From NCBI RefSeq assembly GCF_900109705.1, contig NZ_FOAI01000022.1, positions 1-33,671 of the forward strand: a DNA stretch of 33,671 nucleotides, in the 5' to 3' direction. Both the position numbers and the translations under genes were made by a program. Below are positions 11,695 to 31,505 of the stretch, one piece after another (position 1 is the first letter of the stretch; the number at the start of each line of letters is the position of its first letter). The notes beneath the pieces were generated by a model. The model was given only the letters and a program-made list of their open reading frames with translations. It had not been told where the DNA came from and did no database searches. Source of the stretch: Roseivivax marinus. GTDB lineage: Bacteria; Pseudomonadota; Alphaproteobacteria; Rhodobacterales; Rhodobacteraceae.

Positions 11695-11834
11695 TCAGGC
11701 GGCTTTTGTTGTGATGCTGAGAATGGGGTAGATCTCCTCCTTGTCGATCTGTGCGAAGGCCTCGCCCATCATGTAGCGGCTGGCGGTCTGCCACTCGTCG
11801 TTCTGTTCGAACAGGACGGCGCCGATCAGACGAA
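11695..11834 (-). pseudogene. IS256-family transposase, C-terminal remnant
   Basis: Read leftward from about 11834 the frame gives RLIGAVLFEQNDEWQTASRY, then MMGEAFAQIDKEEI and a natural-looking stop at 11695-11697. 'L.GAVL.EQNDEW...RYM' is the conserved C-terminus of IS256-family transposases. It abuts the end of the RTX gene, overlapping its last bases. The N-terminal part is absent here; an N-terminal IS256 relic lies at 287-424. Confidence 0.65.
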
Positions 11835-13508
11835 CAGGAAGTCGTCAGAGGTCACGTCAGCGGCTTCAACCCCTTCGAGGATGATCTCGAAGCCGTCATA
11901 TGAGATCAGCGTCGCCACATCGTCCATTGTGCCCGCGGCGGAGATCTGCAGCTCCGCGAACCGACTCTCTACGGACTCGCCTTCGACGCCCGAAAGTTGC
12001 AGACGGTCTACGAACTTCTCCATGTCGCGGACGACGTCGGTGGTGCCGGCGAGCATGTCATCGAACACGAAGACGTCATTTCCGGCGCCGCCCTCCAGCG
12101 TGTCGTTGCCCGGCCCGCCGGACAGCGTGTCATTGCCTTGGCCGCCACTCAGGCTGTCGCTTCCCATGCCGCCCTGCAGAAGGTCGTTCCCCCGGTCCCC
12201 CTCGACCGTATCCGATCCCGCGCCGGCATAGACGGAATCGTCCTGCCAGCCAGCGTCGATCAGATCATCGCCGTGGCCGCCGCCGATGACATCCTTGCCG
12301 CTGCCGGCCTCGACAGTGTCGTCACCCCAGCCGGCGGAGATCACGTCACGGCTAAAAACGGGAGCACTGTTGTTCGAATCGTCACCGAAGATCAGGTCGT
12401 TCCCCCGGCCGCCGCTGAGGACCTCTCGGCCGTCTTCGTAGCTCAGGCCTCCCTCGATCGTGTCATCACCTTGTCCTGCGCGCACGGTGTCGTTGCCGTA
12501 GCCCGTGACGATGCTGTCGTTGCCGAGTCCGCCCCCGATCAGGTCGCTGCCAAATCCGGCCCGAGCGACGTCGTCACCGGCGCCGAGCGCAATTCTGTCA
12601 TCGCCCTCGCCGCCGAAAACCGTGTCGTTGCCGGCCGAGGCGGGAAAACCGTCGTCGCCTGCCAAGCCGTGCATCGAGTTATCCCCGTCGTCCCCGACGA
12701 TGCGGTCCGCGTCCATGGTCCCGATCTCGATGTTCGGAAAGGCGTTGCTTTGGTAAACAAGTTCCTCGACGAGCGCCCCGGTCTCGGGATCGAATGTCGC
12801 CTGAAGCGAGAAATCGCGCTCAGGGTAGGCGCCACTGAGATAGGCATCGCGGTAGTTGAAGCTCCCCTCGAATTCGAGAACAGCCCCGTTGTCTTGCGCG
12901 CTGAGCGACAGGTTGTCAGGCTGCGCATTGTAGCCGGTGTCAGTGCTGTAGAGAACCTCACCGGTTTCGGAGTCGATCCGCGCCAGGGTGAGCGGCATGG
13001 GCGGCTTGGCGGTGTCATACTTCTGGAACGAGTGGCCTGCGGCGAGGATGAGATCGCCGTCCGGCGCAGTCACCGACATGAGCTCGGGCGGGTAGATGTC
13101 CCAGCCCGAAGACGCGTAGGCGACGTCGAAATCGCCCCGGAAACCGAAGCGCGCGGTGCTTCCAACGGTTTCGAGGTCCGCATCATAGTGCTGAACCACC
13201 ACATCGGCGGCGGAATAACCCTCGTAAAGCGGCTCACCGGATTGACCGACCTCGGAGAAGGTGCGCGTCACCACTGCGTAGAAACCGCCGTTGCCATCCG
13301 GGTAGACCGTCGGGTACCAAGTGTAGCCATCTTCGAACGTGGTTCCGGCCTGCGTTTCTTGCCCCTCGAAGTTTGCAGGGACGGCTTCGACGCCCGCCTC
13401 GAAGGACACGGTCTGCACCACCTCCCCGAACCGGGAGAGCGTGATCTCGTAGTTGCCGTTGCCTACGCGATCGACGGACACTAGGCCGTTTGCGGTCTCC
13501 AAAGACAA
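11826..13508 (-). CDS. RTX calcium-binding protein 1, type I secreted
   Basis: A 560-residue acidic protein. Residues 1-260 are a non-repeat region with recurring aromatic and D/G turns (GNGNYEITLSRFG, YTWYPTVYPDGNGGFYAVVT, GEVLYSTDTGYNAQPD), probably a beta-rich or propeller-like domain. About 266-478 is an array of nonapeptide repeats of the GGxGxDxUx type (GNDTVFGGEGDDRIALGAGD), which bind calcium and form a parallel beta roll. Residues 479-560 resemble the serralysin-type C-terminus, ending GVEAADVTSDDFLFV, typical of a type I secretion signal. The frame opens at TTG 13508, with ggaag close upstream; no ATG is available, so the start is uncertain and a 5' truncation is possible. No ABC exporter is in the window. 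The target of the N-terminal domain is unknown. Confidence 0.85.
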   Translation of the reverse strand: MSLETANGLVSVDRVGNGNYEITLSRFGEVVQTVSFEAGVEAVPANFEGQETQAGTTFEDGYTWYPTVYPDGNGGFYAVVTRTFSEVGQSGEPLYEGYSAADVVVQHYDADLETVGSTARFGFRGDFDVAYASSGWDIYPPELMSVTAPDGDLILAAGHSFQKYDTAKPPMPLTLARIDSETGEVLYSTDTGYNAQPDNLSLSAQDNGAVLEFEGSFNYRDAYLSGAYPERDFSLQATFDPETGALVEELVYQSNAFPNIEIGTMDADRIVGDDGDNSMHGLAGDDGFPASAGNDTVFGGEGDDRIALGAGDDVARAGFGSDLIGGGLGNDSIVTGYGNDTVRAGQGDDTIEGGLSYEDGREVLSGGRGNDLIFGDDSNNSAPVFSRDVISAGWGDDTVEAGSGKDVIGGGHGDDLIDAGWQDDSVYAGAGSDTVEGDRGNDLLQGGMGSDSLSGGQGNDTLSGGPGNDTLEGGAGNDVFVFDDMLAGTTDVVRDMEKFVDRLQLSGVEGESVESRFAELQISAAGTMDDVATLISYDGFEIILEGVEAADVTSDDFLFV

Positions 13509-14844: not shown

Positions 14845-16299
14845 ATGGTCAATACTGTAATCGTCTCAACGGCTGGCGATGACCGCCTTGAAGGTGGTCA
14901 AAACTCCGCAGACTACATCGATGGCGGCCCCGGTAACGATACCATAATTGGCAACGACGGTGCCGATTGGCTTATTGGTAACCTCGGTGACGACGTTGTT
15001 TTCGCCGGCGCGGGTGACACCGATCTCGACATCGTCCAAGGCGACGATGGCAACGACGAACTCTACGGTGGCGGCGGCGGTGACTTCATCGATGGTGGCG
15101 CTGGCGACGACACGATGGCTGGCGGCACTGGTAACGACGTCCTGATCGGCGAAACCGGAGCATTCAGCCTCGATTTCTACAGCGCGTTTGAGCAGGTTCT
15201 TTCCGGCGTTCAGGACGGCGAGCCTCCGGTAACCGCAGACGACTTTGCTGATTTCTCGAGTGCGCTCCAGGTACTGCAATTCCTCAACTTCGGTGGAACG
15301 ACCGTCGGCATCGACGACAACTTCCTCAACTCGTTCAATCGTGCTGACGCAGGCGACGACGACATCTGGGGCGGGTCCGGTAAGGACTTCATCCTCGGCA
15401 GCATCGGCGATGACGAAATGGGTGGCGGGTCTGGCAACGACACGATCAACGGCGGCCGTGATGACGACACCATCTACGGCAGCACAGGTGAAGACGATCT
15501 GACCGGCGGAGATGAAGACGACCTCATTTTTGGCGGCGACGACAATGATGTGATCGGTGGCGACGGCAATATTGTATCCGTAAATCTCGTCAGCTTCATT
15601 GAAGGCGAAACTGACGAGGACGATGGCAATGGCGATGACGATGACGATACTAATGACTCGTCGTCGCGTGCAGATCTTCTTGCTGACTCTATTCTTACCC
15701 CGGACGGTGACGGTGAAAGTGACTCCATCGTTTTCTCCGACTATGAAGGTGACGACGAGATCTATGGCGGCAACGGCGACGACATCATCGATGCACATGG
15801 TGGATCCGACACGATCTGGGGTGGTGCTGGTAACGACGTGATGAGCGCCGGCAGCGACGACGCAGGCACTCTGACACCGGACAACGAAACCGACATCCTC
15901 GGCTTCATCGCAGGCCACGGCATGGACGACGTTTTCGATTTTGGGGTCAACGAGTATCCTGAATCTGTCAACGGAGCCGAAGGCGCCGAAAACTTTGCCA
16001 ACCGCGAAGATATCATTTGGCTCGTGGACGGGGAATACGACGGCGAATTCGGTGACGCGGTATCCGCAGGCATCATCACCCGCGAGGGCCAGAATGCTGA
16101 TACCATGCTCTGGGAGGTCACGATCGACACGTCCGGCTTCGGCTATGCAGGCGGCGACATGATCACGATCCATTTTGACTCCGAGGACGAAATGAACGCC
16201 TTTGCTGGCGACAACATCGTGGTCGGCGACGACTTCCTGGTCAGTGAGACCCTGTCGTTCCTCGGAACAGACGGCTTCACCGGAGACGGCTTCCTCTGA
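14845..16299 (+). CDS. RTX calcium-binding protein 2, type I secreted
   Basis: A 484-residue, extremely acidic protein made largely of RTX nonapeptide repeats in three blocks: about residues 8-108 (DYIDGGPGNDTIIGNDGADW), 170-250 and 300-340. A non-repeat insert (about 110-168, FYSAFEQVLSGVQDGEPP) separates the first two. A run of aspartate, serine and threonine (about 252-275, DDGNGDDDDDTNDSSS) separates the last two. The C-terminal 145 residues lack repeats and end DGFTGDGFL. There is no separate N-terminal domain: repeats begin at once after MVNTVIVSTAGDDRLEGG. It should fold on calcium outside the cell after type I export. AGAGGA lies 8 bases before ATG, and a rho-independent terminator follows. 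Role could be matrix or adhesion; no enzyme motif is seen. Confidence 0.88.
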   Translation: MVNTVIVSTAGDDRLEGGQNSADYIDGGPGNDTIIGNDGADWLIGNLGDDVVFAGAGDTDLDIVQGDDGNDELYGGGGGDFIDGGAGDDTMAGGTGNDVLIGETGAFSLDFYSAFEQVLSGVQDGEPPVTADDFADFSSALQVLQFLNFGGTTVGIDDNFLNSFNRADAGDDDIWGGSGKDFILGSIGDDEMGGGSGNDTINGGRDDDTIYGSTGEDDLTGGDEDDLIFGGDDNDVIGGDGNIVSVNLVSFIEGETDEDDGNGDDDDDTNDSSSRADLLADSILTPDGDGESDSIVFSDYEGDDEIYGGNGDDIIDAHGGSDTIWGGAGNDVMSAGSDDAGTLTPDNETDILGFIAGHGMDDVFDFGVNEYPESVNGAEGAENFANREDIIWLVDGEYDGEFGDAVSAGIITREGQNADTMLWEVTIDTSGFGYAGGDMITIHFDSEDEMNAFAGDNIVVGDDFLVSETLSFLGTDGFTGDGFL

Positions 16300-17569: not shown

Positions 17570-17656
17570 CCTAGAAAAGCTGCCAGCGTGAGCGTAAGCT
17601 CAGCTAAGTTTTTTGCTGTATCAATCTGGCTCGCAAGGCTCCTAGGAGAACCGAAG

Positions 17657-18316
17657 GTGGCGTCAACAGACCTCAACAAGCTGACCGAAGAAACCTTGAA
17701 GGTTTCCCAGCGGTGGGTGGACACTCCGTACTACAATGCCGTGGAGGCCACCGCGCAGAGGCAATGGACGAGTCTTATAGAGCCGTTCCTGGAAGATGCT
17801 TCGATCGACATGACGCATGTTCTGGAGCTTGCCGTCGGGCATGGCCGGATGACTCAGATTCTACTTGAGCGTTCCAAGCGTGTGACGGGAGTGGATGTTC
17901 TTCAGGAAAACATTGATTTTTGTGCAGAGAGATTTGGACAGATCGATAATCTGACCCTCTTGAAAAACGACGGTGTGTCATTGGAAGAAATTGACGATGA
18001 CACTGTCACGTTCGTCTTCTGTTTCGACTCAATGATCCACTTCGATAGCGACGTGGTTCGGAACTACCTCAGGGAATTCAAGAGGATCATGGCCTCAGGC
18101 GCGATGGCTTTTCTTCACCATTCAAATCTCTCACAGAACCCCGGTGGAGATTTTCAGAGAAACGCGCATGCGCGAAACTTCATGTCGACGCAGCTCTTTT
18201 CCCACTACGCCCAGAAGGAGGGCTTAGAGGTGATGAAGCAAGTTGTCATCGACTGGGGGAATGGAGACAAGAAAGTCGAAAACCTTGATGGTCTTGCGCT
18301 CCTACGATGCCCGTGA
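17657..18316 (+). CDS. Class I SAM-dependent methyltransferase
   Basis: A 219-residue Rossmann-fold methyltransferase. Motif I is LELAVGHGRMTQILLE, followed by the acidic end of strand two in VTGVDVLQENIDFC; VTFVFCFDSMIHF is the motif around strand four and FKRIMASGAMAFLHHS the strand-five region. The GTG at 17657 is preferred because AGGAG lies 7 bases ahead; the open frame extends up to 17588, right next to the IS end, without a ribosome-binding site. The substrate cannot be read from the sequence. It is convergent with a sulfotransferase 12 bases away and close to a large glycan operon, so a role in sugar or small-metabolite methylation is possible. Both genes sit just inside an IS relic, which suggests they moved in together. 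Confidence 0.85.
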   Translation: MASTDLNKLTEETLKVSQRWVDTPYYNAVEATAQRQWTSLIEPFLEDASIDMTHVLELAVGHGRMTQILLERSKRVTGVDVLQENIDFCAERFGQIDNLTLLKNDGVSLEEIDDDTVTFVFCFDSMIHFDSDVVRNYLREFKRIMASGAMAFLHHSNLSQNPGGDFQRNAHARNFMSTQLFSHYAQKEGLEVMKQVVIDWGNGDKKVENLDGLALLRCP

Positions 18317-18328
18317 GGTGTATCTGAG

Positions 18329-19090
18329 TCAGTTCGGCGCGGCGTGCTTGAAATTCTTCTTCGCCGCGTCTCGCAGAAATCGCTCGCGCCACTCGCTGTT
18401 GCGGCTATTTCCGACCTTGACCATCTTCCGCGGCGTTTTCGGAACCGGTGTAGCGACACCGGCCAGCTCTGCGAACGTATCGAGATGGCTCATCGTGTCG
18501 TCAAGGATGACATCCTCGTAGGTCAGCTTCAGTGGAGATATCCCCTGGCTCTCAAAGAATCTTTGCCACACCAGGTTTTCCAACGTGATTGCCGTGACAT
18601 GGCTCAAAATGGCGTCGTACTGATACACGGCGTTCTTGTTGTAGTTCGGGTTGTAGCCGCGCATCATGTTCCCCGAAAAGTGGGCGTCTTCGGGCTTGGC
18701 CGTAGCATGGTTAATCCCGGTCTGCTGCGCCATGATCCGGCTGATCGCCTGTGAGACGACATCGTTGCGCCTTAGCCAGACCCAGCGGGCCTGCGGAAAG
18801 GCTGTCGCGACATGGGCAAATTCTCCCTCCCGATCCGCCTTGAGAAAAGTCGCAAGGCAGCGATCGACGGGATCGAGTTGGTTTGCCATGATCTTGATCG
18901 CGGAGACGCCGTTGTCGCCGGTTGCACGGCTCTGAACCGATGTCAGGTGTTCTTCCCAGTTTAGATCGGTCTTGCCTGGATCCCACGGGATGAACCATTC
19001 TTCCGGCTGACCGAGAACGCCTGTGTTTCGCATGTCCTCAATGACAAGGGTCGAGCCGCAGCGCTGCGTTGCGCACAAGATGATGTCCAC
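18329..19090 (-). CDS. Stf0-like sulfotransferase
   Basis: A 253-residue sulfotransferase. The N-terminal IILCATQRCGSTLVIEDMRN is the 5'-phosphosulfate-binding loop as found in Stf0 (trehalose 2-sulfotransferase) proteins, followed by LGQPEEWF. ARWVWLRRNDVVSQAISRI, about two-fifths along, is the 3'-phosphate-binding segment with arginine and serine. It would transfer sulfate from PAPS to a hydroxyl of a sugar or glycolipid. The frame is open to a TTG at 19144, but GTG 19090 has GGAGG directly upstream and gives the typical start next to the phosphate loop. It ends 12 bases from the convergent methyltransferase. The acceptor is unknown; the C-terminus (EWRERFLRDAAKKNFKHAAPN) is complete. Confidence 0.87.
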   Translation of the reverse strand: MDIILCATQRCGSTLVIEDMRNTGVLGQPEEWFIPWDPGKTDLNWEEHLTSVQSRATGDNGVSAIKIMANQLDPVDRCLATFLKADREGEFAHVATAFPQARWVWLRRNDVVSQAISRIMAQQTGINHATAKPEDAHFSGNMMRGYNPNYNKNAVYQYDAILSHVTAITLENLVWQRFFESQGISPLKLTYEDVILDDTMSHLDTFAELAGVATPVPKTPRKMVKVGNSRNSEWRERFLRDAAKKNFKHAAPN

Positions 19091-19192
19091 GAGCCCTCCA
19101 GGCTGCTTTTTTGCGACAATGTGGGAGCGCGCGCGCGAGTGCAAGATGACGATGATCGCCTACCTCGGCCCCTCGGGGTCAAGGAGCGAAAA

Positions 19193-19575: not shown

Positions 19576-21192
19576 ATGGCTAACATTACTCTTCCCGTTG
19601 ACACCGGTGCTACCGGGACTGCGGCTGCTGACATCTTCAATGTTCCCTTCGGAGCCGCCACGGTTGACGGTGCGGCTGGCGTCGATATCGTGAACATTCT
19701 TGATGAGAACGGGCTTATTTCGATCCCGGCTGGCTTCACTGTCGAAGGCGCGTTCAATGGTGGCGTGTACACGGTGACCGCAGGAGATCTGACCCTGCAG
19801 AACTTCGAAGTGGGCAATGTGGCCAACGGCACGCTCACATCCACCGCGACAACGGCCGCCCCCAACTACCTTCAGCTGGGAGACGTCGCCGTCGGTGACC
19901 TCCTGACGCAGAGTGGTGATACCATCAGGGTCGCTGATGCATCCGATGTTATGGCGTGGACCGGTTCGCAGCTCATTACGCTGAACGAAGACTTCACGAT
20001 TTCTTCGGTGAATGGTGTTGAAGCAGAAGAGTCCTTTGAACTCGACGGCCTGGGTACGGTCGCTCTTGTTAATAGTGACCAATCTCTTGATTTCACTGCG
20101 TTCGAATCGTTCCTGGGCACGTTGGGCTGGGGAAATCGCGCCGTTGTTGAACTCGATGTCGAGTTCGAAAACGATGACGACACGGTTTCCTTCACGGAGA
20201 CCTTCTCGGTTACCGTCGAAGGTGGCGCGACTGAAGGTGCCGACTTCTTCAACACGTCGAACACCGAAGACGACGACAGCGATGGCGATTTCCTCAACGG
20301 TCTTGGCGGCGATGACGTCGTTCTGGGCGACGAAGGTGACGACTTCATCTACGGCGGTGCCGGAAACGATGAGATCTACGCTGGTGCGAAGGACGCCGCC
20401 GGTGTCGTAAACGAAGATGCCGGAAACGACGAATTTGCCGGTGGTTCTGGTGACGACACGATCGCTGGTGGTGAAGGTGACGACCTGCTGATCGGTGATG
20501 ATTACGCGGCTGTTTCCGGTGGAGAGTTCAACGCTCAAGGCAATGGTGCTGACATCATCTTCGGCGGCGACGGTGACGACGATATCTACACTGGATCGCT
20601 TAATGGTATCACTCACACCGGCAACGGTGACGACGAAGCCTACGGCGGCGCCGGTGAGGACGAAATCTTCGGCGACAATGGCGACGATACTCTCGGCGGT
20701 GGCGACGGCGACGATGACATCCTCGGCGGTGGCGGCGACGATGAAATCTATGGTGGTCAAGACGATGGTGACGACGACATCGAAGGTGGGAACGGCGACG
20801 ATCTGATCTTTGGTGGCGCTGGAGACGATGACCTCGAAGGCGGCAACGACGACGATACCATTTTCAACGGCGCTGGAGACGATGAAGTCGCTGGTGGTTC
20901 CGGCCAGGATACAATCTGGGGCGGTGCCGGGGACGATCTTCTCGCAGGAGACGGCGACGAAGATACTTTCGCATTCGTTGCTGGAAATGGCGCTGATACC
21001 ATCAGCGACTTCGATGCATCCGAGGATATTCTCGACCTGTCGAATGTCGCGGGTATCAACGCCGACAACATCGGTGACTTCGCGGCCGAAGTGGATAACG
21101 AACTCGTCATCTACTACACGGACGAAGACAGCGTGACGCTTCAGAACGTTGGCCTCGACGATCTCGACAACGTCAACTTCACTTTCGGCTGA
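19576..21192 (+). CDS. RTX calcium-binding protein 3, type I secreted
   Basis: A 538-residue acidic protein. Residues 1-225 are a non-repeat domain rich in T, V and G with beta-strand periodicity (MANITLPVDTGATGTAAADI; GFTVEGAFNGGVYTVTAGDL), similar in style to surface or S-layer-like domains. About 238-480 are RTX nonapeptides (FLNGLGGDDVVLGDEGDDFI). About 485-538 is the C-terminal secretion region ending VGLDDLDNVNFTFG, similar to the end of RTX1. AGGAAA lies 7 bases before ATG. A ttgaca box (19454-19459) with a weak ctaggt 17 bases on is a possible promoter 94 bases upstream. A strong terminator follows. It faces the glycan operon, and its serine/threonine-rich N-terminus could accept O-glycans, which is speculation. 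Confidence 0.88.
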   Translation: MANITLPVDTGATGTAAADIFNVPFGAATVDGAAGVDIVNILDENGLISIPAGFTVEGAFNGGVYTVTAGDLTLQNFEVGNVANGTLTSTATTAAPNYLQLGDVAVGDLLTQSGDTIRVADASDVMAWTGSQLITLNEDFTISSVNGVEAEESFELDGLGTVALVNSDQSLDFTAFESFLGTLGWGNRAVVELDVEFENDDDTVSFTETFSVTVEGGATEGADFFNTSNTEDDDSDGDFLNGLGGDDVVLGDEGDDFIYGGAGNDEIYAGAKDAAGVVNEDAGNDEFAGGSGDDTIAGGEGDDLLIGDDYAAVSGGEFNAQGNGADIIFGGDGDDDIYTGSLNGITHTGNGDDEAYGGAGEDEIFGDNGDDTLGGGDGDDDILGGGGDDEIYGGQDDGDDDIEGGNGDDLIFGGAGDDDLEGGNDDDTIFNGAGDDEVAGGSGQDTIWGGAGDDLLAGDGDEDTFAFVAGNGADTISDFDASEDILDLSNVAGINADNIGDFAAEVDNELVIYYTDEDSVTLQNVGLDDLDNVNFTFG

Positions 21193-21267: not shown

Positions 21268-21936
21268 CTAGTAGCGAGAAAGGCAGACGACGGCCCCCGA
21301 AGACCCGCGCGGATCGTAAGCAAACCCGCGTGCCGCCAAACGGGCGAAGATGTCGGCCAGCGTCTTGCGATCATAGCGCTCCGGGTGCAGCTCCAGCACG
21401 ATGAGACGCAAGCTACTGGGCAAGGAATGGTCGAAGTATCCCGCCTCCGCGCCCTCCACGTCCACCACGAGCACGCTCGGTGCGGTTTCTGCGATCAGCG
21501 CGGGAAGAGACAGCGCAGGCACGCGCACGGCATCAGCCCCGTCCGTCGCATCAAGGCTCGCCGCCCAGTACGCCCTGGGAACATTGAACAGGATATCATC
21601 GGTCTCGGCCCCGGCGGTCACCGCACCATGGAGCAGCCGCACGCCATCGGCATCGTTGGCAGCAAGGTTGGCCCGGATGACGGGTAGCATGGCAGGATTG
21701 GCTTCGACCGTGGTCACGGCCTCTGGGCCCACGGCGCGGGCCGCTACGCAAGCCAGAAGCCCCGCCCCGCCGCCGATCTCGAGTACGGTATCTCCACGAA
21801 TAAGATGGGCGTGAAGCGCGCGCCGCTCCTCGACCTCGTACCAGCCCTTGTCGCACATGCGCGTGATACCGGGGGTGAGCATCTTCTCGGGCAACGCGAA
21901 GGAGAGGCCGTCAATCGTCCAGCATCGAGTGGCCAT
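21268..21936 (-). CDS. FkbM-family SAM methyltransferase
   Basis: A 222-residue methyltransferase of the FkbM family. Motif I is VLEIGGGAGLLACVAA (51-66), the SAM-ribose acid is in VTTVEANPAM (about 74-83), and the family signature VVDVEGAE is at 157-164. FkbM enzymes O-methylate hydroxyls, often on sugars of surface glycans. It is the last gene of the five-gene minus-strand operon, starting 30 bases after the sulfotransferase stop with AAAGGATC upstream of its ATG. Combined with the sulfotransferase it suggests that the glycan is both sulfated and methylated. The acceptor position cannot be read from the sequence. Confidence 0.88.
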   Translation of the reverse strand: MATRCWTIDGLSFALPEKMLTPGITRMCDKGWYEVEERRALHAHLIRGDTVLEIGGGAGLLACVAARAVGPEAVTTVEANPAMLPVIRANLAANDADGVRLLHGAVTAGAETDDILFNVPRAYWAASLDATDGADAVRVPALSLPALIAETAPSVLVVDVEGAEAGYFDHSLPSSLRLIVLELHPERYDRKTLADIFARLAARGFAYDPRGSSGAVVCLSRY

Positions 21937-21966
21937 GCGGGATCCTTTCGCGATCTTGGGCAGCGC

Positions 21967-22689
21967 TCAGCCGCTCTGCAAATGGGTCAACCGGTGCCCG
22001 AGAACATCCTGGACGAGCCCAGCGTCGAAGGGCTCTCCGAGAAAGTCGAAAAGCGGGCGCCATCTCTCCGGTCCGCGGGTGTAATCATTGTAGTGCAATT
22101 TCAGGCAGCGATCGGGATGATCCGCGATGTACTTCTCGAAGAGGGCCTCGGCGGTCTCGAGCTGGCGAGCGACAACCTGGGGGTTCATCCATTTCCACCA
22201 GCCCGATTGCGCCACCTGGTCGTGTTGCCGAGTGTTGAAGATGAAGCGGGTACGCGGAAAGAACCGGGTCAGGAAATCGAGGATGACGGGAAAGAGCGCG
22301 GGATCGGAATGCCAGCGGATCTCCTTGCAGCCGATCACCCGGGTCTCCTCGCTCGGGCGGAGTATGGTCTGAAGGTAGCTTTCGGCGAGTGAAGCCCCCA
22401 GCATGTCTGGATCAATCGCTTCGAAGCCGTACCATGGATCGCTGGGGTCGGACGTCTTACCTGTCGAGAGCATCTTGTCGCGCTGAGATGAATGCTGAAG
22501 CGTGCTCCAGGCCCGTGCAAGCGGCGCGACGAGGTTCTCGTTCTCTCCGCGAATTGTATACCCCGGCAAGGCGTTCAGCAGGTTCTGGACAAGGGTCGAG
22601 CCGGACCGGCCATAGGTGATGATGAAGACGCTGCTCTCGAGCCGAGGATAGAGCTCTTCGATGGTTCTAGGATTGCTTTTCAGAACCAT
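21967..22689 (-). CDS. Sulfotransferase (PAPS-dependent)
   Basis: A 240-residue sulfotransferase with the phosphosulfate loop ITYGRSGSTLVQNLLNALPG at residues 24-43 and the 3'-phosphate segment TRFIFNTRQHDQVAQSGWW around 145-165, in which the usual serine of 'R.P....S' is present as QSG. A sequence WHSDPALFPVILDFLTRFFP separates them. It belongs to the Sulfotransfer_3 type rather than the Stf0 type encoded at 18329-19090. The ATG lies inside the end of the preceding glycosyltransferase gene (10-base overlap, ATGGTTCTGA), so translation is coupled. Sulfation of the glycan made by the upstream glycosyltransferases is the simplest role. Confidence 0.87.
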   Translation of the reverse strand: MVLKSNPRTIEELYPRLESSVFIITYGRSGSTLVQNLLNALPGYTIRGENENLVAPLARAWSTLQHSSQRDKMLSTGKTSDPSDPWYGFEAIDPDMLGASLAESYLQTILRPSEETRVIGCKEIRWHSDPALFPVILDFLTRFFPRTRFIFNTRQHDQVAQSGWWKWMNPQVVARQLETAEALFEKYIADHPDRCLKLHYNDYTRGPERWRPLFDFLGEPFDAGLVQDVLGHRLTHLQSG

Positions 22690-24626
22690 GGGCTCACCTC
22701 GATCTTGGTGCCGGGAACGCCGCGGGTGTGCAGATATGTTGCGAGTTTCGGAGTCGCCGCAAAAATGCGCTCATACGCATGCTCGTAGGCCAGGGCGTGA
22801 ACAATGTTCGATGCATCGGACAGGCGCTCATCATCGGGGGGCGACAGGTGAAGATAGGTCCGTACGCCGAGCCGCCGCAGAGGCCCCATCAGGCGATGCC
22901 CTCCGAGGCAATCGAGATTGTGAATCTCGTCGAGCCAGAAGAGCATGGCCAGCGCCGCTGCTCCGGCCTCTGGCACACCTGGAGCCCGTAGGGGCACGTT
23001 CTCGTAGTGGAGGTTCTGGGGGTCTCGCGCATCGAGCCGACCATCACAAAGCAAGGCCAAGCTATCGATTGATCGATAATCCACCTGACTGACCATCGCC
23101 CCGGGGACAAACAGGTGAAGACCCGCGCCTTGGGACCGTTTGGGCTGGAACGCCTCGACGACGTTATGGAGACCGTCTTTCTGGCCCAGTGTGAGAATGC
23201 CTATCTCGTCTGTTCGCTCCGATGGCAGGCGCGGAGCTACCGGCTGACCTGAAAAGCTCTTACGCAGGATGGTATGTTCACGGCCTCGAAGCGCGATAGA
23301 TGGCTGACGCCAGGTCCAGCGGCGAAGGCCCGCGGCACGGAACCGCGAGCCATGAAGACAAGCCAGCGCCTTGCTAAGTCCTTTAGCCGCGGGACCCACG
23401 CGGACCGGAAGATCCACACGAACCGCATGACAGTTTGCCGGTGATGTTTCGGCGGTTTCCCTTGCGGGATCTGAGACGCAATCCTCGTTCAGCAGAGCCT
23501 CGAGGCGCTTGTGACCGATCATCCAGGCCACGGCCTGGCGACGCCGGTGAGGCGTATCCGCCACCTCGGTCTGGATTGCCAGACCCGTGGCCCTGATGCC
23601 GGGACCCAAGGTTAAATACCCCAGATCATCTTGCGCAGCGGTGTGTTCGAGCCTCCAGAGCATCCAGTGCAGAAGGCCCTTGGCCTGCATCGCGTCTTCA
23701 AGATCAGGAGACAGAACAACAAGATAGGGCGGCACTCGGTATCGCATCGGGGTTGTCCGGCTTCGCCAGTAGAGCGCGGCGTAAGCCTCGAGCGACATTT
23801 CCTCGCCGAGGTGTTCCGGATCCGTGGTGAGACGTACGCGGCCTTCTTCGGGTGCTACGAGCGCATAGCGAGGAGCCTCACTTTGTTCGAGGACTACCTG
23901 AGTGCGGGGGGAATACAGATCCTCATGAGCTTGCCGGACGGTTCCGGCGAGAAAGGCCACGTTGCGGTCGGCATCAGCCAACATGCTTTCCGGGCGCTTG
24001 CGGTAGAAGAAGCCGAAATCCTCAAGGTTGATGCCTGAAAAACCCGCATCTCCGGCCGACAGGAAAAAGTGCCAGTCTTCGAAGCCCTGAGTGAAGGTTT
24101 CATCAAACATCACGCCTTGTTCGAACACCTCTCGCCGGATCAGGCTACCAGCTTCCGAGATATTCATCTGGCTATGGATCAGGCGGGAATAGCGCCCACT
24201 GTAGTCGCAGCGGGCCTTGATGCCGAACATGTCGATGCTGGGGTATACCCATCCGGCTTCGGGATGCGCCTCGAGCGCCTGCATGGCGCGGGCCATGGCC
24301 CCGGGCCGCAGGCGGTTGTCGGCATCAAGCATGAATAACGCTTCGACAGAGGGAAAATGCGCGAGCACATGTCGGATCCCGAAATTCCTTGCCGAGCTCA
24401 AGCCACCATTTGGTTTTCGAAGATAGGTCAGGTGATCCTTGTGCGCGGCTGCCAAGGTCGAGATCACAAAATCCGTTTCAGGGTTCGGGCACCCGTCGTT
24501 GACGACGAGAACATGGATTCCGAACGAGGCCTGCTGCGACAGAGCTGCACAGAGCGCTTCGGAGACCAGCACGGAATGGCCGTAGACCGGCACAATGATG
24601 GCAAGACGTGGAGACGCGCGATGCAT
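22680..24626 (-). CDS. GT2 glycosyltransferase with truncated second glycosyltransferase domain
   Basis: A 648-residue cytoplasmic protein. Residues 8-260 are a GT-A family 2 domain: AIIVPVYGHS (9-18), VVNDGCPNPE (41-50), KPNGGLSSARNFGI (71-84), the DAD metal site (101-103) and the acceptor-side GFEDWHF (181-187). Residues 260-430 have no clear match. About 430-648 resemble the N-terminal Rossmann half of a GT-B enzyme (GHRLMGPLRRLGVRTYLHLS; ERIFAATPKLATYLHTRGVP). The protein stops at IEVSPWF, where GT-B proteins normally enter the nucleotide-sugar-binding half, so the second domain seems cut. Start: the ATG at 24626 overlaps the upstream stop (TGATG); an earlier in-frame ATG at 24662 lies inside the previous gene and is less likely. 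Donor and acceptor sugars are unknown. Confidence 0.87.
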   Translation of the reverse strand: MHRASPRLAIIVPVYGHSVLVSEALCAALSQQASFGIHVLVVNDGCPNPETDFVISTLAAAHKDHLTYLRKPNGGLSSARNFGIRHVLAHFPSVEALFMLDADNRLRPGAMARAMQALEAHPEAGWVYPSIDMFGIKARCDYSGRYSRLIHSQMNISEAGSLIRREVFEQGVMFDETFTQGFEDWHFFLSAGDAGFSGINLEDFGFFYRKRPESMLADADRNVAFLAGTVRQAHEDLYSPRTQVVLEQSEAPRYALVAPEEGRVRLTTDPEHLGEEMSLEAYAALYWRSRTTPMRYRVPPYLVVLSPDLEDAMQAKGLLHWMLWRLEHTAAQDDLGYLTLGPGIRATGLAIQTEVADTPHRRRQAVAWMIGHKRLEALLNEDCVSDPARETAETSPANCHAVRVDLPVRVGPAAKGLSKALACLHGSRFRAAGLRRWTWRQPSIALRGREHTILRKSFSGQPVAPRLPSERTDEIGILTLGQKDGLHNVVEAFQPKRSQGAGLHLFVPGAMVSQVDYRSIDSLALLCDGRLDARDPQNLHYENVPLRAPGVPEAGAAALAMLFWLDEIHNLDCLGGHRLMGPLRRLGVRTYLHLSPPDDERLSDASNIVHALAYEHAYERIFAATPKLATYLHTRGVPGTKIEVSPWF

Positions 24627-26038
24627 CAAATGCGCAGCCATATGTCGCGAAAGGTGGCCCACCCGTAGGCTGGCGCAGCGCCCGGGCCAAGCCGGGTCAG
24701 AAGATAGAGATCAAGACCCTGATCGGCAGGTTCTGGCAAGATAAGCTCCAGCTCGTCTTCCCGGTCTCCGCTCAGGCCAACCCAATCCGATATGCACCGG
24801 GTCTGCTGACAATGATGAACAAGATCGAACAGTTCGCGCACCGGCCGGGAAGGCGCGACTGCCAAAGCGTATTCGACGTTGGGCCCTTGTGGGTGGCGCC
24901 CTCCGATCGTGGCGGTAACCATACGAATTCCGGGATAGACCGCACCGGAGAGACGGGCAGAGCTGATCTTCTCGGGGCGCGGATGAACCTGAAGGGCTTC
25001 GAGATCGGAGAAGTACTTCAAGTCCTCTCCCGCGGAGGCCGCCAGAGCGGCGAGCCGGAGCGGGTCCACGTACATCTGCGGAGGAACAGGCCCCTCGGGC
25101 CAGTGCCCGTCTTCCGGCATCGGAGGATGGCTCCCGGGGCTGTGCTTCCAAATCCTGTGGGCCAGGATGCGGTCTGCGCGCACCTCGCCGATGATGGCGC
25201 AGTAATCTGGGTCGGGATGAAACACGCCGCCGCCAATCCGGAGGGAGTGGTCCGAGTGCCAAGCCAGATGCAGAGACGGCGTCTGCTCGTCATCGTCAAG
25301 CGCGTCGGGAAGAGACAGGCGCAGCCAACCGGGAGACAAACCGGGGGCCTCCAAAGACCAGGTTGCTGCCTCCGTGCCCGACTCGATCAAGCTAAGCGTG
25401 GCCTTCAGCTGTCCCGTCTCTGGCAATTGTTGTTCCGGCAAGAAGATCGCAATGTCGGAAAGGCCTATGCTGTTGGCTGCAAGGCGCTGGCTCAGTGAGC
25501 TGTGCGGGGGCATCTCGAGCGCAGGCGCCTGATGGCCGGGCAGGGGGCCGTTCGCTTGAGCCAGCCACCGTTTCGTACCAAGAGACCCGGCTATGAAGGT
25601 GCGCAGAGCATGAACCGTTCGGCTGGCCGCCTCATGTTCGATGCGGAGTTGCGACAACATCTCCAGAAGTTCTGCATTGTGCTGGACGACCGCCTCCGCC
25701 TGCATCCGGTAAATGCTGGCCAGCGCGCCAAGCGCGTGAGTTCGGCGCGCCTCGCGATCTGGATCCTGTGCATCCGAGAGATCGATCAGGGGCGGCGAAG
25801 CGATGCCACACCGTGCGGCCCAGCAAGTGGCCACCTCGTCTAGAAGAGCTCGGCTCTCCGGCGAGCCGACGATCAGCCCCGCGACCTCTCCCGTCATCGT
25901 TTCCGGGAGGAATGGCTGTCCGTTATCGAGGCAGATGTCACCTCTTTCCGAAAGACGCACCACGACAAGTTCGACAGGGAGATTGAGATCATTCATCTCG
26001 GCGAAATCGGCCGCCGCAAGGAGCATCTTGTGACGCAT
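24626..26038 (-). CDS. Uncharacterised 470-residue protein of the glycan operon
   Basis: Not confidently recognised; from memory the N-terminus (MRHKMLLAAADFAEMNDLNL) resembles a domain family restricted to Rhodobacterales glycan loci (DUF6212-like), which should be checked. Visible parts: an alpha/beta N-terminal region, 1-100; a helical, coiled-coil-like stretch, about 105-150 (AEAVVQHNAELLEMLSQLRI); then a long beta-rich region with LSLIESGTEAATWSLEAPGL and LHLAWHSDHSLRIGGGVFHP, which looks like a carbohydrate-binding or jelly-roll fold. No signal peptide or membrane segment. It begins 2 bases after the giant glycosyltransferase stop (GGAGA 6 bases ahead) and shares its stop with the next start. 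A non-catalytic partner or scaffold for the glycosyltransferases is a guess from context. Confidence 0.8.
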   Translation of the reverse strand: MRHKMLLAAADFAEMNDLNLPVELVVVRLSERGDICLDNGQPFLPETMTGEVAGLIVGSPESRALLDEVATCWAARCGIASPPLIDLSDAQDPDREARRTHALGALASIYRMQAEAVVQHNAELLEMLSQLRIEHEAASRTVHALRTFIAGSLGTKRWLAQANGPLPGHQAPALEMPPHSSLSQRLAANSIGLSDIAIFLPEQQLPETGQLKATLSLIESGTEAATWSLEAPGLSPGWLRLSLPDALDDDEQTPSLHLAWHSDHSLRIGGGVFHPDPDYCAIIGEVRADRILAHRIWKHSPGSHPPMPEDGHWPEGPVPPQMYVDPLRLAALAASAGEDLKYFSDLEALQVHPRPEKISSARLSGAVYPGIRMVTATIGGRHPQGPNVEYALAVAPSRPVRELFDLVHHCQQTRCISDWVGLSGDREDELELILPEPADQGLDLYLLTRLGPGAAPAYGWATFRDIWLRI

Positions 26039-26040
26039 CG

Positions 26041-29000
26041 TCAGTCTCCACGACTTGGAAGATCTGCCTCGTGGCCCTCAGCTATGGCGCGAGCGGAGTA
26101 CAATCCAGCGCGCCAGCCGCGATGCTTGGCCGCGATCGCACCGTGCCGACGGTCGATCTCGGCGGCGTCGACCCCGTTCTTGGCCGCCCACTTCAAAAAG
26201 GCGGTCTGCTCACGATCAATGCGAAGTTCGAGCTCTTCCTCGGTTCCGGTTCCAAGTTCCCAACCGAACTGCTCGAAGAAGAAGGCCGACTCGATCTTGG
26301 ATCGCTTGAAAGTCTCGTCCGCGTCATAGTCGTGGCTGTGATAGACGGTCGCGGTGGGCGCGTAGAGCTTGGTGTAACCCGCTTCCAGAATCATGCTGGC
26401 CCAGACTTGATCCTCTCCATAATCGATTTCGGGGTAGGGGATCTCGCGCCAGACGTCTCGGCGCATGGCCGAGTTGTTGTCCGAATAGAAGTAGAGGGCC
26501 TGCCGCCAAGCGATCTCGCCGGTATTCCAGCGCAGCGGATCGGTCTCCTTCGAGACCGCGAGAGGGCGGCTGCGCATGTTCTCGAAATGCCTCTCGATCT
26601 CGCGCCGAACGAAGAGCGGGTGATGCGGATGCGGCAAATGCCGCCCGAATAGGCCCGCGGCCTCGGGGTAGTGCGCCATCATCTTGGCGATGTCGGTGGC
26701 CCAGTCTCGGGTGGCAGGGATCGCGTCCTGGGTCAGAAAGGCGATCAGCGGCGCGCTGCCGAGGCTCGCTCCGAAATTTCGGGTGCGGCCGTGCTGGAAG
26801 TCCTTCTGCGCGATCACCGTCGTGCTCACGTCCTCCTGCGCGTGGAGCCATTCGGTCGTGCCATCCGAGGAGGAGGAATCGATGCAGTGGATCTGTATCC
26901 GATCTGCCAGCCTCTGCTCGCGCAGGGACGCGATCACCTCTTCGATCTCTCCCATCCCGTTGTAAGTGGGAATGACCACGTCGAGGATCGGTGCAGGGGT
27001 CGGGACGATCGCTGGCGCCGCGATTTCCACGCCCGTCTCGCGCAGGCGCTCGAGAAGCGCGCCCTCGACCTCGCGGGCGGTGGTCTCCCAAGTCATCGGG
27101 CCAACCCAGTCCGCAGCTCGATCCCGCTGCGACGCCCGCGCCGCGGGATCGTCCAGAAGGCTACCGAGCGCATCCGCAATGCCATCCGGCGTGGGCGCGG
27201 CCAGCGTCACCACGCCCTCCGGGAAAATCGCGCGGGTGCTTTCGCCGTCGAGTTCGACCACTGGCAGCCCACAGGCCATCATCTCCTGGGGAACCAGCGA
27301 GTAGTTGGTGGCCGACACGCAGAGACCGAGATCGCAATCTCCGTAAAGACGGGCCAGTTCTTCGGCGCTCAGCACCCCGTGATTATAGGCTTCGAACGGT
27401 GTCTCATCGAAAGGCATCTCCGCCTGACCGAAGAAGTGCACCTCAAAATCGTCCCGCCGTGCGCCGAGAATGTCGAGTCCCAAGAGACACAGTTGCACGC
27501 AGCGCCTTGCGGTGTGCTCGCGCCCGTAGACTGCAATCTTCAGGCGGCCGGTGCGCGAGGCTGGGACCTCGCGCCGACGATAGATCTCGGGATCGTAGGC
27601 AAGGTGGAAACCCCGGCTCCAGCGTCCATAGCGCTCGCGCATGATCGTCTCGAGCCATGGGCTGGCGCAGATACACGCGAGGTCGAACGCGTAGGTCTGC
27701 TGGGCAAGGATGCGCTCGCTTCCGGCGGGGTAGAAGTCGGGCTCGTGATCCTGGACGAAATAGTACTTCGCCGCAAAGCCGCGCGAGGCATCGGCCAGAT
27801 GGGCAGTCGACCAGCCGGTTGCGATGACCGCGTCGCCACGTACCTCGAACAGCCCGTCCCGAACCAGACGCACCTCGGCCTGAACGCACTGAAAGTACTT
27901 AACCAGGGTCTCGTAAGCCGCGTCGGTGGTGTCATGCTGCGTCGGTCGCTCGATCCAAATCGTACAGCGGTGACCGAAATTCTCCAGCAGGCGGACGATC
28001 CGGAAGATCGTCATGTGTCCGCCACTTCCCGGCGAGAAATCGGGAACGATCCAATGCAGGTCGAGGGCGCGAGCATCGATCATTGCAGGAGGCGCAGGCT
28101 GCTCCATATGGCTCGCGTCTCGCGCATCGAGAACGCTCTGCATGCCCCTCAGCCCTGTCATTTCGGCTCGTGGCCGGTGCACGAAGCGGGCCGGTTGCCC
28201 TTCGGCGGCGCGCCGCGGTGGCTTGTGCGGGACGAGCCTATAATCGGCAAGTGGGCAGATAACCGAGTCGGGCGTGTAGGTCCGCAGGTAGAACTCGGTT
28301 GAGAAGTCGGGAGCCGGATCGAAACCCTTATGCCAGCCCTTATCGACATAGTGCCGCAGAGCCTCGCGGTCGTCTTCGGGCAGACCAGAGACCTGTGCAC
28401 GGTAATAATCTGGATCAAACCCACCGGCGAGAATGGCTTCCTCATCGGCGGTCATGTCTTGTAGACGTACCGGAAAGGGCCGGACCGTCTCGCGTTCCTG
28501 CATCTTCCCCGAGGTTGCGTAATGCAGAAGGGGGTTGATCTCCGCCAAACGCACGTCGGGGTGCAGTTTGAGGTACCCTGAAACCGAGAAATCCGGAGAT
28601 GGATCGCGTCTGTGTTTCCAACCGCGCGTCAGGAAAATCTCGAGCAGCCGATCATCGCTCACATCGGTGAGGCTCGGATGGGTGATCCGGTAATAGTCGG
28701 CGTGAAAATAGGGGCGTGTGGCCTCCATCTCCGCATCGAGGCCGCAGGCCGGACGGGACGTACGGCCCTCCGCGCGCCCCGATTGCAGATAATGTAAAAG
28801 TGGATTCATTTCTGCCAGCGCGACGTCTGCGTAGGCCTCAAGATACCGCCGAACGCAGAACTCCGGGGAGGGGTCGCGTCCCTCTTTCCAGCCGTGCCGA
28901 TTAAAATGGGTAAGAAGACGCGAGTCTGAAAAGTTCGCAAGGTCTGGGCAGACTGCCCGGTAGAAGCTCGCGTCAAAAAACGGGGCTATGATTTCGGCAT

Positions 29001-29379
29001 CGCGCTCGTCTGGGGTCGGTGGGCGAGGATCAAGCCCCCTAGCGCGACCGGTGGTGATGTAGTGGTAGAATGGGTTGATCTGTCGCTGGCGGATGCTTGG
29101 ATGTGCCGCGAGATAGCGCTCGGTCGAAAAATCCGGTGTGGGATCGAGATTACGCTCCCAGCCGCAGTTGCAGTAGTGCTGAAGTAGCGAGCGGTCGTTG
29201 TGTCCTGCGAGACCGGGGACCTGCTTGCGATAGTGCTCGGCATCAAAATACGGCTCCAGGGTCCGAAGGACCTTCTCCTCGCTGTGCAATCGCGGCATGT
29301 GGAGTCGTCGGAATACCATGGAAAGCCATCGCTCTGAGTGCGGAGTTGTCAGCCAGCGGGGGTTTAGGAGACCGGGCAT
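26041..29379 (-). CDS. Giant multidomain glycosyltransferase: four N-terminal repeats, WsaF-like GT4, GT2
   Basis: A 1112-residue cytoplasmic protein and first gene of the operon. Residues about 42-388 hold four repeats of roughly 90 residues: a 'FDAxxYR...P.L....D..LL.HY...GW..GRDPSPDFS...YL...PDV..AEINPLLHY..SG' unit (FDAEHY 45, FDASFY 135, FHADYY 225, FDPDYY 321). About 438-785 resembles the WsaF rhamnosyltransferase (LDLHWIVPDFSPGSGGHMTI, YFVQDHEPDFYPAG, and the donor-site NYSLVPQEMMACGLPVVELD). About 799-1075 is a GT2 domain (DVVIPTYNGMGEIEEV, IDSSSSDGTTEW, and the rhamnosyltransferase-like QHGRTRNFGASLG). It could build a rhamnose-containing disaccharide unit in one polypeptide; sugar identity is inferred. 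No clear ribosome-binding site precedes ATG 29379; ATG at about 29319 is an alternative. Confidence 0.9.
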   Translation of the reverse strand: MPGLLNPRWLTTPHSERWLSMVFRRLHMPRLHSEEKVLRTLEPYFDAEHYRKQVPGLAGHNDRSLLQHYCNCGWERNLDPTPDFSTERYLAAHPSIRQRQINPFYHYITTGRARGLDPRPPTPDERDAEIIAPFFDASFYRAVCPDLANFSDSRLLTHFNRHGWKEGRDPSPEFCVRRYLEAYADVALAEMNPLLHYLQSGRAEGRTSRPACGLDAEMEATRPYFHADYYRITHPSLTDVSDDRLLEIFLTRGWKHRRDPSPDFSVSGYLKLHPDVRLAEINPLLHYATSGKMQERETVRPFPVRLQDMTADEEAILAGGFDPDYYRAQVSGLPEDDREALRHYVDKGWHKGFDPAPDFSTEFYLRTYTPDSVICPLADYRLVPHKPPRRAAEGQPARFVHRPRAEMTGLRGMQSVLDARDASHMEQPAPPAMIDARALDLHWIVPDFSPGSGGHMTIFRIVRLLENFGHRCTIWIERPTQHDTTDAAYETLVKYFQCVQAEVRLVRDGLFEVRGDAVIATGWSTAHLADASRGFAAKYYFVQDHEPDFYPAGSERILAQQTYAFDLACICASPWLETIMRERYGRWSRGFHLAYDPEIYRRREVPASRTGRLKIAVYGREHTARRCVQLCLLGLDILGARRDDFEVHFFGQAEMPFDETPFEAYNHGVLSAEELARLYGDCDLGLCVSATNYSLVPQEMMACGLPVVELDGESTRAIFPEGVVTLAAPTPDGIADALGSLLDDPAARASQRDRAADWVGPMTWETTAREVEGALLERLRETGVEIAAPAIVPTPAPILDVVIPTYNGMGEIEEVIASLREQRLADRIQIHCIDSSSSDGTTEWLHAQEDVSTTVIAQKDFQHGRTRNFGASLGSAPLIAFLTQDAIPATRDWATDIAKMMAHYPEAAGLFGRHLPHPHHPLFVRREIERHFENMRSRPLAVSKETDPLRWNTGEIAWRQALYFYSDNNSAMRRDVWREIPYPEIDYGEDQVWASMILEAGYTKLYAPTATVYHSHDYDADETFKRSKIESAFFFEQFGWELGTGTEEELELRIDREQTAFLKWAAKNGVDAAEIDRRHGAIAAKHRGWRAGLYSARAIAEGHEADLPSRGD

Positions 29380-30518: not shown

Positions 30519-31505
30519 TCAGACCGACATCTCTGCTTCAACAGACAAAAAATGCGCTGCCGAACCACTTCGGTTATGAAGACGGGTTACCAGCCAAATG
30601 CTCATCAAGGCGACAAGCGCTCCCGAGATTAGATCAACGAAATAATGCCCTCCGTGTACGGGTGTGGCTGCAATCATCACAGATGAATAAATCCATGCTG
30701 GAACTGAAAGATTGGTTCTACGGCAAGCCCAGATAATTAGAACTCCCGACGCCGTGTGAAAGGATGGAAAGGTCACTAAACCAGGAAGCTTGGCAGGATC
30801 CAACACTATTGGTCCGCTTGGAGAGCGCAACACATCCATATAGGGTACGTGGTAGACGCCAGGCACCCAGCCCAATGGCTCAAAAATGGATAAGTCTTGA
30901 ACGAGGAAAAGAACGGCGGCCTCTGCCGGGAAAAAGGCTCCAATAATCAAGCACGCCAATGCGGTTATCAGGAAGGCCTCGATAAACTTTCTAGCTTGCG
31001 CTATATAACCGAAAGAAATTAACGCGACTAGCACAGCCGCACTTAGGAAAGTTAAAGAAGTATAGCTTGAAGCGAGCGCTTGGAACAAAATCCGACTGGA
31101 CACAACGGCATTGAGGTACGCTAACCAATCGAGATGTAGGGCTGCATCCCAGTCTGCCAGAACTTCATCCACATATGGAAATGGCACCATCATTGATAAA
31201 TGGTTCATGATTCTTAAATTAAGCCAAGAAATGTGGAGAAAAAAGAAGCCTTCCGCAAGATAGTGCAGACGGACTAAAAATGTTTTAGGCCGATCAGCTT
31301 CCCGCAACAGGCGCCGTGCCGCCACGAATACTGCCAGCAGAGTAACGCCCTGAAAGAAGAAGAGGGGCAATCGATCTGTCACCAGCTCAGCTCGAGAGAA
31401 CGTAATAATTATGACGTTGAGCGTGGTTAGAATACCGATGCAAACATAACTCGGCATGCACACCATCGGCAGGATTGGAGGGGAATCGTACTTACGCAAA
31501 AGCAA
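30519..31505 (-). CDS. PAP2-superfamily integral membrane protein 1
   Basis: A 328-residue membrane protein with about six or more hydrophobic segments (for example about 17-37, 46-63, 152-168, 176-200, 255-262 and 270-283, 290-308). The PAP2_3 (inositolphosphotransferase/Aur1-like) phosphatase motifs are at FPSFHTA (246-252) and TPVHGGHYFVD (281-291), which supply the catalytic histidines and aspartate. Such enzymes remove or exchange phosphate head groups on lipids or polyprenyl carriers in the membrane. The open frame starts at TTG 31505, which has GAGG 5 bases ahead; later ATGs (residues 14 and 17) are alternatives. Base composition is lower in G+C than in the flanking genes, suggesting a foreign origin. 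A second PAP2 gene lies on the other side of an IS element. Confidence 0.8.
   Translation of the reverse strand: MLLRKYDSPPILPMVCMPSYVCIGILTTLNVIIITFSRAELVTDRLPLFFFQGVTLLAVFVAARRLLREADRPKTFLVRLHYLAEGFFFLHISWLNLRIMNHLSMMVPFPYVDEVLADWDAALHLDWLAYLNAVVSSRILFQALASSYTSLTFLSAAVLVALISFGYIAQARKFIEAFLITALACLIIGAFFPAEAAVLFLVQDLSIFEPLGWVPGVYHVPYMDVLRSPSGPIVLDPAKLPGLVTFPSFHTASGVLIIWACRRTNLSVPAWIYSSVMIAATPVHGGHYFVDLISGALVALMSIWLVTRLHNRSGSAAHFLSVEAEMSV

Follow-up and report, generated by a model that had tools for sequence, protein, structure and literature searches.

A predicted glycan gene set on a plasmid-like contig

The window analysed here is a stretch of 33,671 nucleotides from Roseivivax marinus, where it forms contig C36; the genome assembly has 39 contigs and a size of 4.0 Mb. 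Its main subject is a predicted glycan operon of five minus-strand genes at 21268-29379, together with the RTX genes that lie beside it. All five open reading frames (ORFs) were found where an initial annotation, made from the DNA letters alone, had placed them. From the gene of the 1112-residue protein onward, the spacings are +2, -37, -10 and +30 bases. Hence the gaps and overlaps of 2-30 bases described at first stand for three of the junctions, while the remaining one is a longer overlap of 37 bases. By Pfam, the contig encodes a ParA-type ATPase and a replication initiator A (PF10134). Judged by this gene content the contig is plasmid-like, as had been proposed. For comparison, the Roseobacter 'biofilm plasmid' is characterised by a RepA-I plasmid bearing a rhamnose operon; of these features, the analysis covered the replication initiator.

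The first gene of the operon encodes a fusion of N-terminal repeats, a WsaF-type glycosyltransferase and a GT2 domain, in agreement with the earlier description. WsaF_N and WsaF_C scored 30.1 and 41.4 bits against a cut-off of 27, and GT2 also exceeded its Pfam cut-off. The repeats, each of about 90 residues, were modelled as helical by AlphaFold2, with a mean predicted local distance difference test (pLDDT) of 79. The 470-residue protein had been called uncharacterised, but it is no orphan. It belongs to the family DUF6212 (PF19717), with 235 bits against a cut-off of 26.4 (E = 1.4e-69; residues 63-449 on profile positions 2-395 of 395), and it has a relative in the galactoglucan cluster of Sinorhizobium meliloti. 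The name DUF6212 was not found in the literature searched. The AlphaFold2 model of this protein (mean pLDDT 86, predicted template modelling score 0.49) consists of an alpha/beta head, a long helix (95-152) and two jelly rolls (155-301 and 316-470), both of which resemble carbohydrate-binding modules and other jelly-roll domains in a fold comparison. The simplest reading of this model is that the DUF6212 protein may hold a sugar chain.

The third protein, of 660 residues, is a GT2 enzyme by Pfam, with a second domain that the initial annotation had called partial and that lacks the C-terminal half. Its alignment with the protein that occupies the WgaB position in S. meliloti spans 688 columns (29% identity, E = 5e-67). 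The truncation is common to the window, Pararhodobacter (L053) and Roseibaca (L054), and the five other rows of the alignment are full-length. Thus the window does not hold the full-length WgaB (GT2 plus GT4) of a galactoglucan-type cluster. The sulfotransferase and the FkbM methyltransferase at the end of the operon were both confirmed by Pfam. Relatives of the sulfotransferase lie near a homologue of the 1112-residue protein in Roseibaca (L054, 55% identity) and Pararhodobacter (L101, 58%).

All three neighbouring RTX proteins contain PF00353 (E = 7.5e-28 to 1.6e-38). Between the operon and the more distant RTX genes lie a Stf0-type sulfotransferase and a class I methyltransferase. Because relatives of both adjoin DUF6212 in Roseibaca (62% and 65%), these two genes probably belong to the gene set as well, making it larger than five.

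Table 1. Genes of the predicted set and neighbouring RTX genes in the window.
Feature	Position	Strand	Basis and remarks
1112-residue protein	26041..29379	-	N-terminal ~90-residue repeats (~45-385), WsaF-type glycosyltransferase (497-738), GT2 (801-925); Pfam and model
470-residue DUF6212 protein, WgaA family	24626..26038	-	PF19717; AlphaFold2 model, fold comparison
660-residue WgaB-type glycosyltransferase, GTG start	22680..24662	-	GT2 (Pfam) and second domain cut before its C-terminal half
240-residue sulfotransferase	21967..22689	-	PF13469, Sulfotransfer_3
222-residue FkbM-type methyltransferase	21268..21936	-	Pfam; NCBIfam TIGR01444 over cut-off
538-residue RTX protein, convergent with the operon	19576..21192	+	PF00353; 75 bases from the operon
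Stf0-family sulfotransferase (probable member)	18329..19144	-	PF09037; 62-63% to the gene beside DUF6212 in Roseibaca
Class I methyltransferase (probable member)	17588..18316	+	PF13649; 65% to a gene in the Roseibaca locus
484-residue RTX protein, membership uncertain	14845..16299	+	PF00353; transposase-like stretches between it and the operon
560-residue RTX protein, membership uncertain	11826..13508	-	PF00353

Kinship with the galactoglucan cluster of S. meliloti

The DUF6212 profile matched a protein encoded on S. meliloti pSymB with E = 4e-126, and the window protein itself showed 24% identity to it (E = 2e-13). The pSymB locus comprises 21 genes over 27 kb. Among them are four rfb genes, two genes for pyruvyl transferases and one for a glycoside hydrolase, a GT2-GT4 enzyme and DUF6212. 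They also include a PF12000 glycosyltransferase, a MarR regulator, a type I ABC transporter, HlyD, a 219-residue RTX protein, further glycosyltransferases and a methyltransferase. The published galactoglucan (exopolysaccharide II, EPS II) cluster is described as 22 genes in 27 kb with the operons wga, wgcA, wggR, wgd and wge (PMC3233446; PMC1403797). Because the pSymB block matches this description in content and order, it appears to be the galactoglucan cluster, with DUF6212 as WgaA and its partner as WgaB by position; the S. meliloti gene names used here were assigned in this way and not from a named annotation. The 22nd gene would be WgaC, if the 893-residue enzyme is counted as two. In the window, the DUF6212 gene is likewise followed by the WgaB-like gene, across the overlap of 37 bases. 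Thus the gene set is undescribed only in part, since its DUF6212-glycosyltransferase pair has a studied relative.

According to the published accounts, the galactoglucan cluster directs the synthesis of a high-molecular-weight polysaccharide (PMC1403797; PMC3233446), and an insertion in wgaA abolishes EPS-II-dependent swarming (PMC3418255). Galactoglucan in S. meliloti is reported to depend on the RTX protein ExpE1/WgeA as well as on the transporter of this protein (PMC1403797; PMC2912261). A tolC mutant makes no galactoglucan, which its authors attribute to missing WgeA secretion (PMC2912261). No multi-spanning protein was seen among 19 of the 21 cluster proteins, each of which has at most one segment resembling a membrane span; these 19 comprise all but the type I ABC transporter and a methyltransferase. 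The initial annotation had concluded from the missing polymerase and flippase that the window encodes a short-glycan decorating machine. This conclusion does not follow, because neither was seen in the galactoglucan cluster, which has the same gene pair and makes a large polysaccharide.

The RTX protein of the window and the rhizobial 219-residue protein showed 44% identity over 207 residues, as shared repeats alone would give. Some galactoglucan-type ORFs appear split, namely glycosyltransferases and HlyD in Neorhizobium galegae CP090555 (L060) and the type I ABC gene in S. meliloti CP140948 (L029), by sequencing error or decay.

RTX genes beside DUF6212 in other genomes

A scan of the genome collection with the three closest proteins led to two loci, in Pararhodobacter sp. 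CCB-MM2 and Roseibaca sp. Y0-43. In both, the DUF6212-glycosyltransferase pair lies 242-374 bases from an RTX gene. The Roseibaca locus (L054) carries on one strand DUF6212, a short WgaB, an RTX gene, a PF10119 methyltransferase, a sulfotransferase, a second RTX gene whose product has serralysin-type domains, the homologue of the 1112-residue protein, a type I ABC transporter and HlyD. The genes of Pararhodobacter are distributed over two contigs. The first has, in this order, a WgcA-like glycosyltransferase (PF12000; 35% to the S. meliloti protein, E = 4e-79), a gene for 476 residues, DUF6212, a short WgaB and an RTX gene, and the second has a methyltransferase, a sulfotransferase, the 1112-residue homologue, an ABC transporter and HlyD. 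No relative of the FkbM methyltransferase was seen by BLASTP in the Roseibaca and Pararhodobacter stretches. The PF10119 methyltransferases at L054 9788-11323 and L101 993-2549 are 50% identical and each lies beside a sulfotransferase. PF10119 is a domain of protein lysine methyltransferases of rickettsiae, an affiliation that would be consistent with a protein as substrate.

The RTX protein at 19576-21192, the one of the three covered by this comparison, was searched against four whole genomes, with alignments made up mostly of RTX repeats. In Pararhodobacter, the best match was the RTX gene beside DUF6212 (150 bits; the next 78). The best match in Roseibaca also adjoins DUF6212 (75.8 bits), the next one elsewhere being close at 68.9 bits. 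Judging by these alignments, the RTX gene at 19576-21192 would be the best-supported secreted partner of the operon.

Neighbouring genes were labelled by BLASTP against a small reference set and by a regular expression for RTX repeats, with Pfam applied to selected ORFs. Among 390 Rhodobacterales genomes, 24 had a DUF6212 match and 22 exceeded the cut-off; the stretches around all 22 were read. A sample of the class (385 genomes) gave seven matches, six of them over the cut-off including the window's own, and the sub-cut-off G642 was left out of the reading. The other five all had an RTX gene in the stretch, four of them being of one genus. DUF6212 matches were also present in 86 plasmid records, of which nine were read, together with one reached through the 660-residue protein. 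In the Hyphomicrobiales plasmid loci an RTX gene lies beside DUF6212 in five of five cases. Hence RTX genes flank DUF6212 in all ten loci read outside Rhodobacterales, which amount to fewer than ten independent cases because there are near copies among them.

In a DUF6212 tree of 41 rows, Pararhodobacter and Roseibaca form a group with the window (support 100/99), and each of the ten rows from other orders bears the RTX label. This label requires four changes on the tree, compared with a mean of 12.4 after shuffling, and none of 500 shuffles was as low. The tie between gene set and RTX genes, drawn initially from position, therefore recurs in the two nearest relatives and in 10/10 loci outside the order. 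The neighbourhood survey had been named beforehand as a check on that tie, which would have failed had homologous operons never lain near RTX genes; they did lie near them.

Homologues of the 1112-residue enzyme that span both glycosyltransferase parts in a single ORF were found in six other genomes, with identities of 53% (Roseibaca), 37% (Pararhodobacter), 52% (G274), 53% (G375), 53% (G275) and 40% (G087). Type I secretion genes adjoin the homologue in two of the six.

As for the plasmid setting, a 39-kb Roseivivax marinus plasmid covers 26% of a 25,000-base query from the window at 91.5% identity. The two have backbone genes in common, but the plasmid carries other glycosyltransferase cargo. 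Two near-identical ORFs of 143 residues occur on the minus strand of the window (3927-4358 and 6173-6604), and a phasin gene of equal length lies on the related plasmid. An 859-residue protein at 8870-11449 matches a virion RNA polymerase domain over residues 1-132 (PF21769, E = 5.5e-17), a phage-type piece on a plasmid. Beyond a resolvase gene, two PAP2-family membrane proteins were identified by Pfam at 30519-31505 and 32638-33564.

Interpretation and comparison with known systems

We lean towards the view that the window carries a compact, plasmid-borne, sulfating and methylating system akin to the galactoglucan (Wga/Wgc/Wgd/Wge) type and that it couples the assembly of a glycan to an RTX protein secreted by the type I route. 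DUF6212, as the WgaA-like protein, would hold the growing glycan for the WgaB-like glycosyltransferase, and the WsaF-GT2 enzyme would add more sugars. Two sulfotransferases and two methyltransferases would then decorate the chain, with all steps taking place in the cytoplasm. We infer both the sugars and this order of steps. The product might leave the cell with the RTX protein, or because of it, by a type I transporter encoded elsewhere in the genome; a type I ABC and HlyD pair lies on host contig C30. The position of the host's single PF12000 glycosyltransferase, behind two RTX genes of the same strand on contig C21, also speaks for this reading.

Several observations weigh against this coupling. 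RTX genes lie near DUF6212 in just five of the 22 Rhodobacterales genomes, namely the window, Pararhodobacter (G098), Roseibaca (G134), G284 and G017, and the evidence in G017 is weak, consisting of one RTX stretch. Three of the 22 (G224, G345 and G220; L045, L046 and L049) are blind on one side, as the contig begins some 100-200 bases upstream of the gene. The G017 locus (L047) is near-identical to these and has an RTX-like gene at the point where those contigs break off, so that repeats may have broken the three assemblies. No RTX gene was found near DUF6212 in two genomes found later (G462 and G538), and the same was true of two sub-cut-off genomes (G129 and G278). In Paracoccus, none of the five plasmid loci read has an RTX gene within 12-15 kb; linkage to RTX is thus not a requirement for the occurrence of the DUF6212 pair. 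Among the seven single-ORF forms of the 1112-residue enzyme, four (G274, G375, G275 and G087) showed no RTX motif and no pair of type I secretion genes in the surrounding sequence that was read, and three of these are as similar to the window's enzyme as that of Roseibaca. Their stretches gave just generic ABC ATPase matches and an efflux-type adaptor, with a sulfotransferase-like neighbour in three of the four. The best match to the window RTX protein in G284 is off-locus (95.6 bits on C24, compared with 76.2 at the DUF6212 locus on C29). In the window itself, BLASTP with the ORFs of at least 100 residues never gave a best match to a reference for WgcA, MarR, pyruvyl transferase or type I secretion. 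Finally, the fraction of the genome within 2 kb of an RTX gene was roughly estimated as 2.9% for the window's genome (a lower bound), 1.2% for Pararhodobacter and 0.8% for Roseibaca, from RTX positions read by eye and assuming random, independent placement, which overstates significance because RTX genes are common and surface genes cluster.

The coupled reading would hold with or without a bond between glycan and protein. It thus overlaps with the next two alternatives, and the likelihoods given here are not meant to sum to one. The stronger of the two is a secreted or capsular polysaccharide, with the RTX neighbour as a protein secreted separately, a lectin or a matrix component, to which the completed glycan would be bound non-covalently; we regard it as a serious contender, though we would not wager on it. 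The homologous S. meliloti cluster is described as making galactoglucan, and RapA2, a calcium-binding rhizobial lectin, is reported to bind acidic exopolysaccharide (PMC10574481). Many RTX-free DUF6212 loci also carry pyruvyl transferases or sulfotransferases. However, the loss of galactoglucan in the tolC mutant, put down to WgeA secretion (PMC2912261), exceeds the effect expected of a bystander lectin.

Covalent glycosylation of the RTX protein, the idea of the initial annotation, would mean that a sulfated, methylated oligosaccharide is built on the unfolded cytoplasmic protein before type I export. We consider it unlikely, although several points agree with it. Donors of sulfate and methyl groups are cytoplasmic, and none of the eight proteins that the set encodes in the window contains a segment resembling a membrane span. 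WgcA-like glycosyltransferases adjoin RTX genes on one strand in L126 and on host contig C21, where two RTX genes with CAP domains precede the only PF12000 glycosyltransferase of the genome on the same strand (276.8-282.4 kb; L139 8757-14420). This enzyme is 58% identical to that beside DUF6212 in Pararhodobacter. Glycosylation has been described for two RTX proteins of cyanobacteria, SwmA and oscillin (PMC3034196). On the other hand, the literature read contains no report of a glycan on any RTX protein of the present group, and the known S. meliloti product is a polysaccharide.

A bolder and less probable version makes the RTX protein a carrier. WgcA-/WgaAB-type enzymes would build the glycan on the cytoplasmic RTX protein and a type I transporter would export the loaded protein, thereby replacing lipid carrier, flippase and polymerase; the window would be the sulfated marine version and galactoglucan the rhizobial one. 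Such a carrier would explain why ExpE1/WgeA is required for galactoglucan. For the exopolysaccharides of rhizobia at large, a review presents a lipid-linked scheme of the Wzx/Wzy kind, which speaks against a carrier protein unless the galactoglucan cluster is an exception.

Chance neighbourhood, in which the glycan genes would be exchangeable cargo of a small plasmid and the RTX genes there a coincidence, seems improbable to us. It would account for the different cargo on the shared backbone of the 39-kb plasmid, for the RTX-free majority of Rhodobacterales loci and for the off-locus match in G284, and RTX genes are frequent in the host, with at least 163 repeat matches (150 of 316 candidates scored). 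It would not account for both nearest relatives, where the RTX gene with the best match lies next to the same gene pair and where the 1112-residue homologue has type I secretion genes as neighbours. Modification of O-antigen or a glycolipid is very unlikely: WsaF, FkbM and sulfotransferase families do occur in such loci and the general Wzx/Wzy scheme would suit a lipid-linked glycan, but a Pfam scan of 23 ORFs, a part of those in the window, found no flippase, ligase or ABC-2 exporter and no phosphoglycosyltransferase of the initiating kind.

The coupled reading proposes a class of function for DUF6212 and connects marine genes for sulfated glycans with an exopolysaccharide system of rhizobia for which genetic data exist. 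It also sharpens an old question, namely why galactoglucan production needs a type-I-secreted RTX protein. If the RTX protein does carry the glycan, export would follow a route that needs neither lipid carrier nor flippase.

Compared with known systems, the 1112-residue protein has both domains of WsaF, which we take to be a rhamnosyltransferase family of S-layer glycans, but differs by its fusion to repeats and GT2, and the rest of an S-layer glycan locus was not seen in the window. SwmA and oscillin are glycosylated RTX surface proteins, but of a different phylum. The Paracoccus loci (e.g. L030, with DUF6212, glycosyltransferase, sulfotransferase and pyruvyltransferase) resemble the window in having DUF6212 beside a WgaB-like enzyme and a sulfotransferase; they differ in their full-length WgaB, and no type I secretion gene lies within the distance searched for RTX genes. 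Roseibaca (L054/L063) and Pararhodobacter (L053/L062, L101) have in common with the window close relatives of DUF6212, the short WgaB, the 1112-residue enzyme and the sulfotransferase, together with RTX, and Roseibaca shares the Stf0 sulfotransferase and class I methyltransferase too. Both differ from the window by their own type I secretion genes and the PF10119 methyltransferase, and Pararhodobacter by its split over two contigs. From the galactoglucan cluster, in which type I secretion is involved and no flippase or polymerase was seen, the window differs by its sulfotransferases, its repeat-WsaF-GT2 enzyme and its short WgaB, while DUF6212 with a GT2-type glycosyltransferase, an RTX calcium-binding protein and a methyltransferase are present in both.

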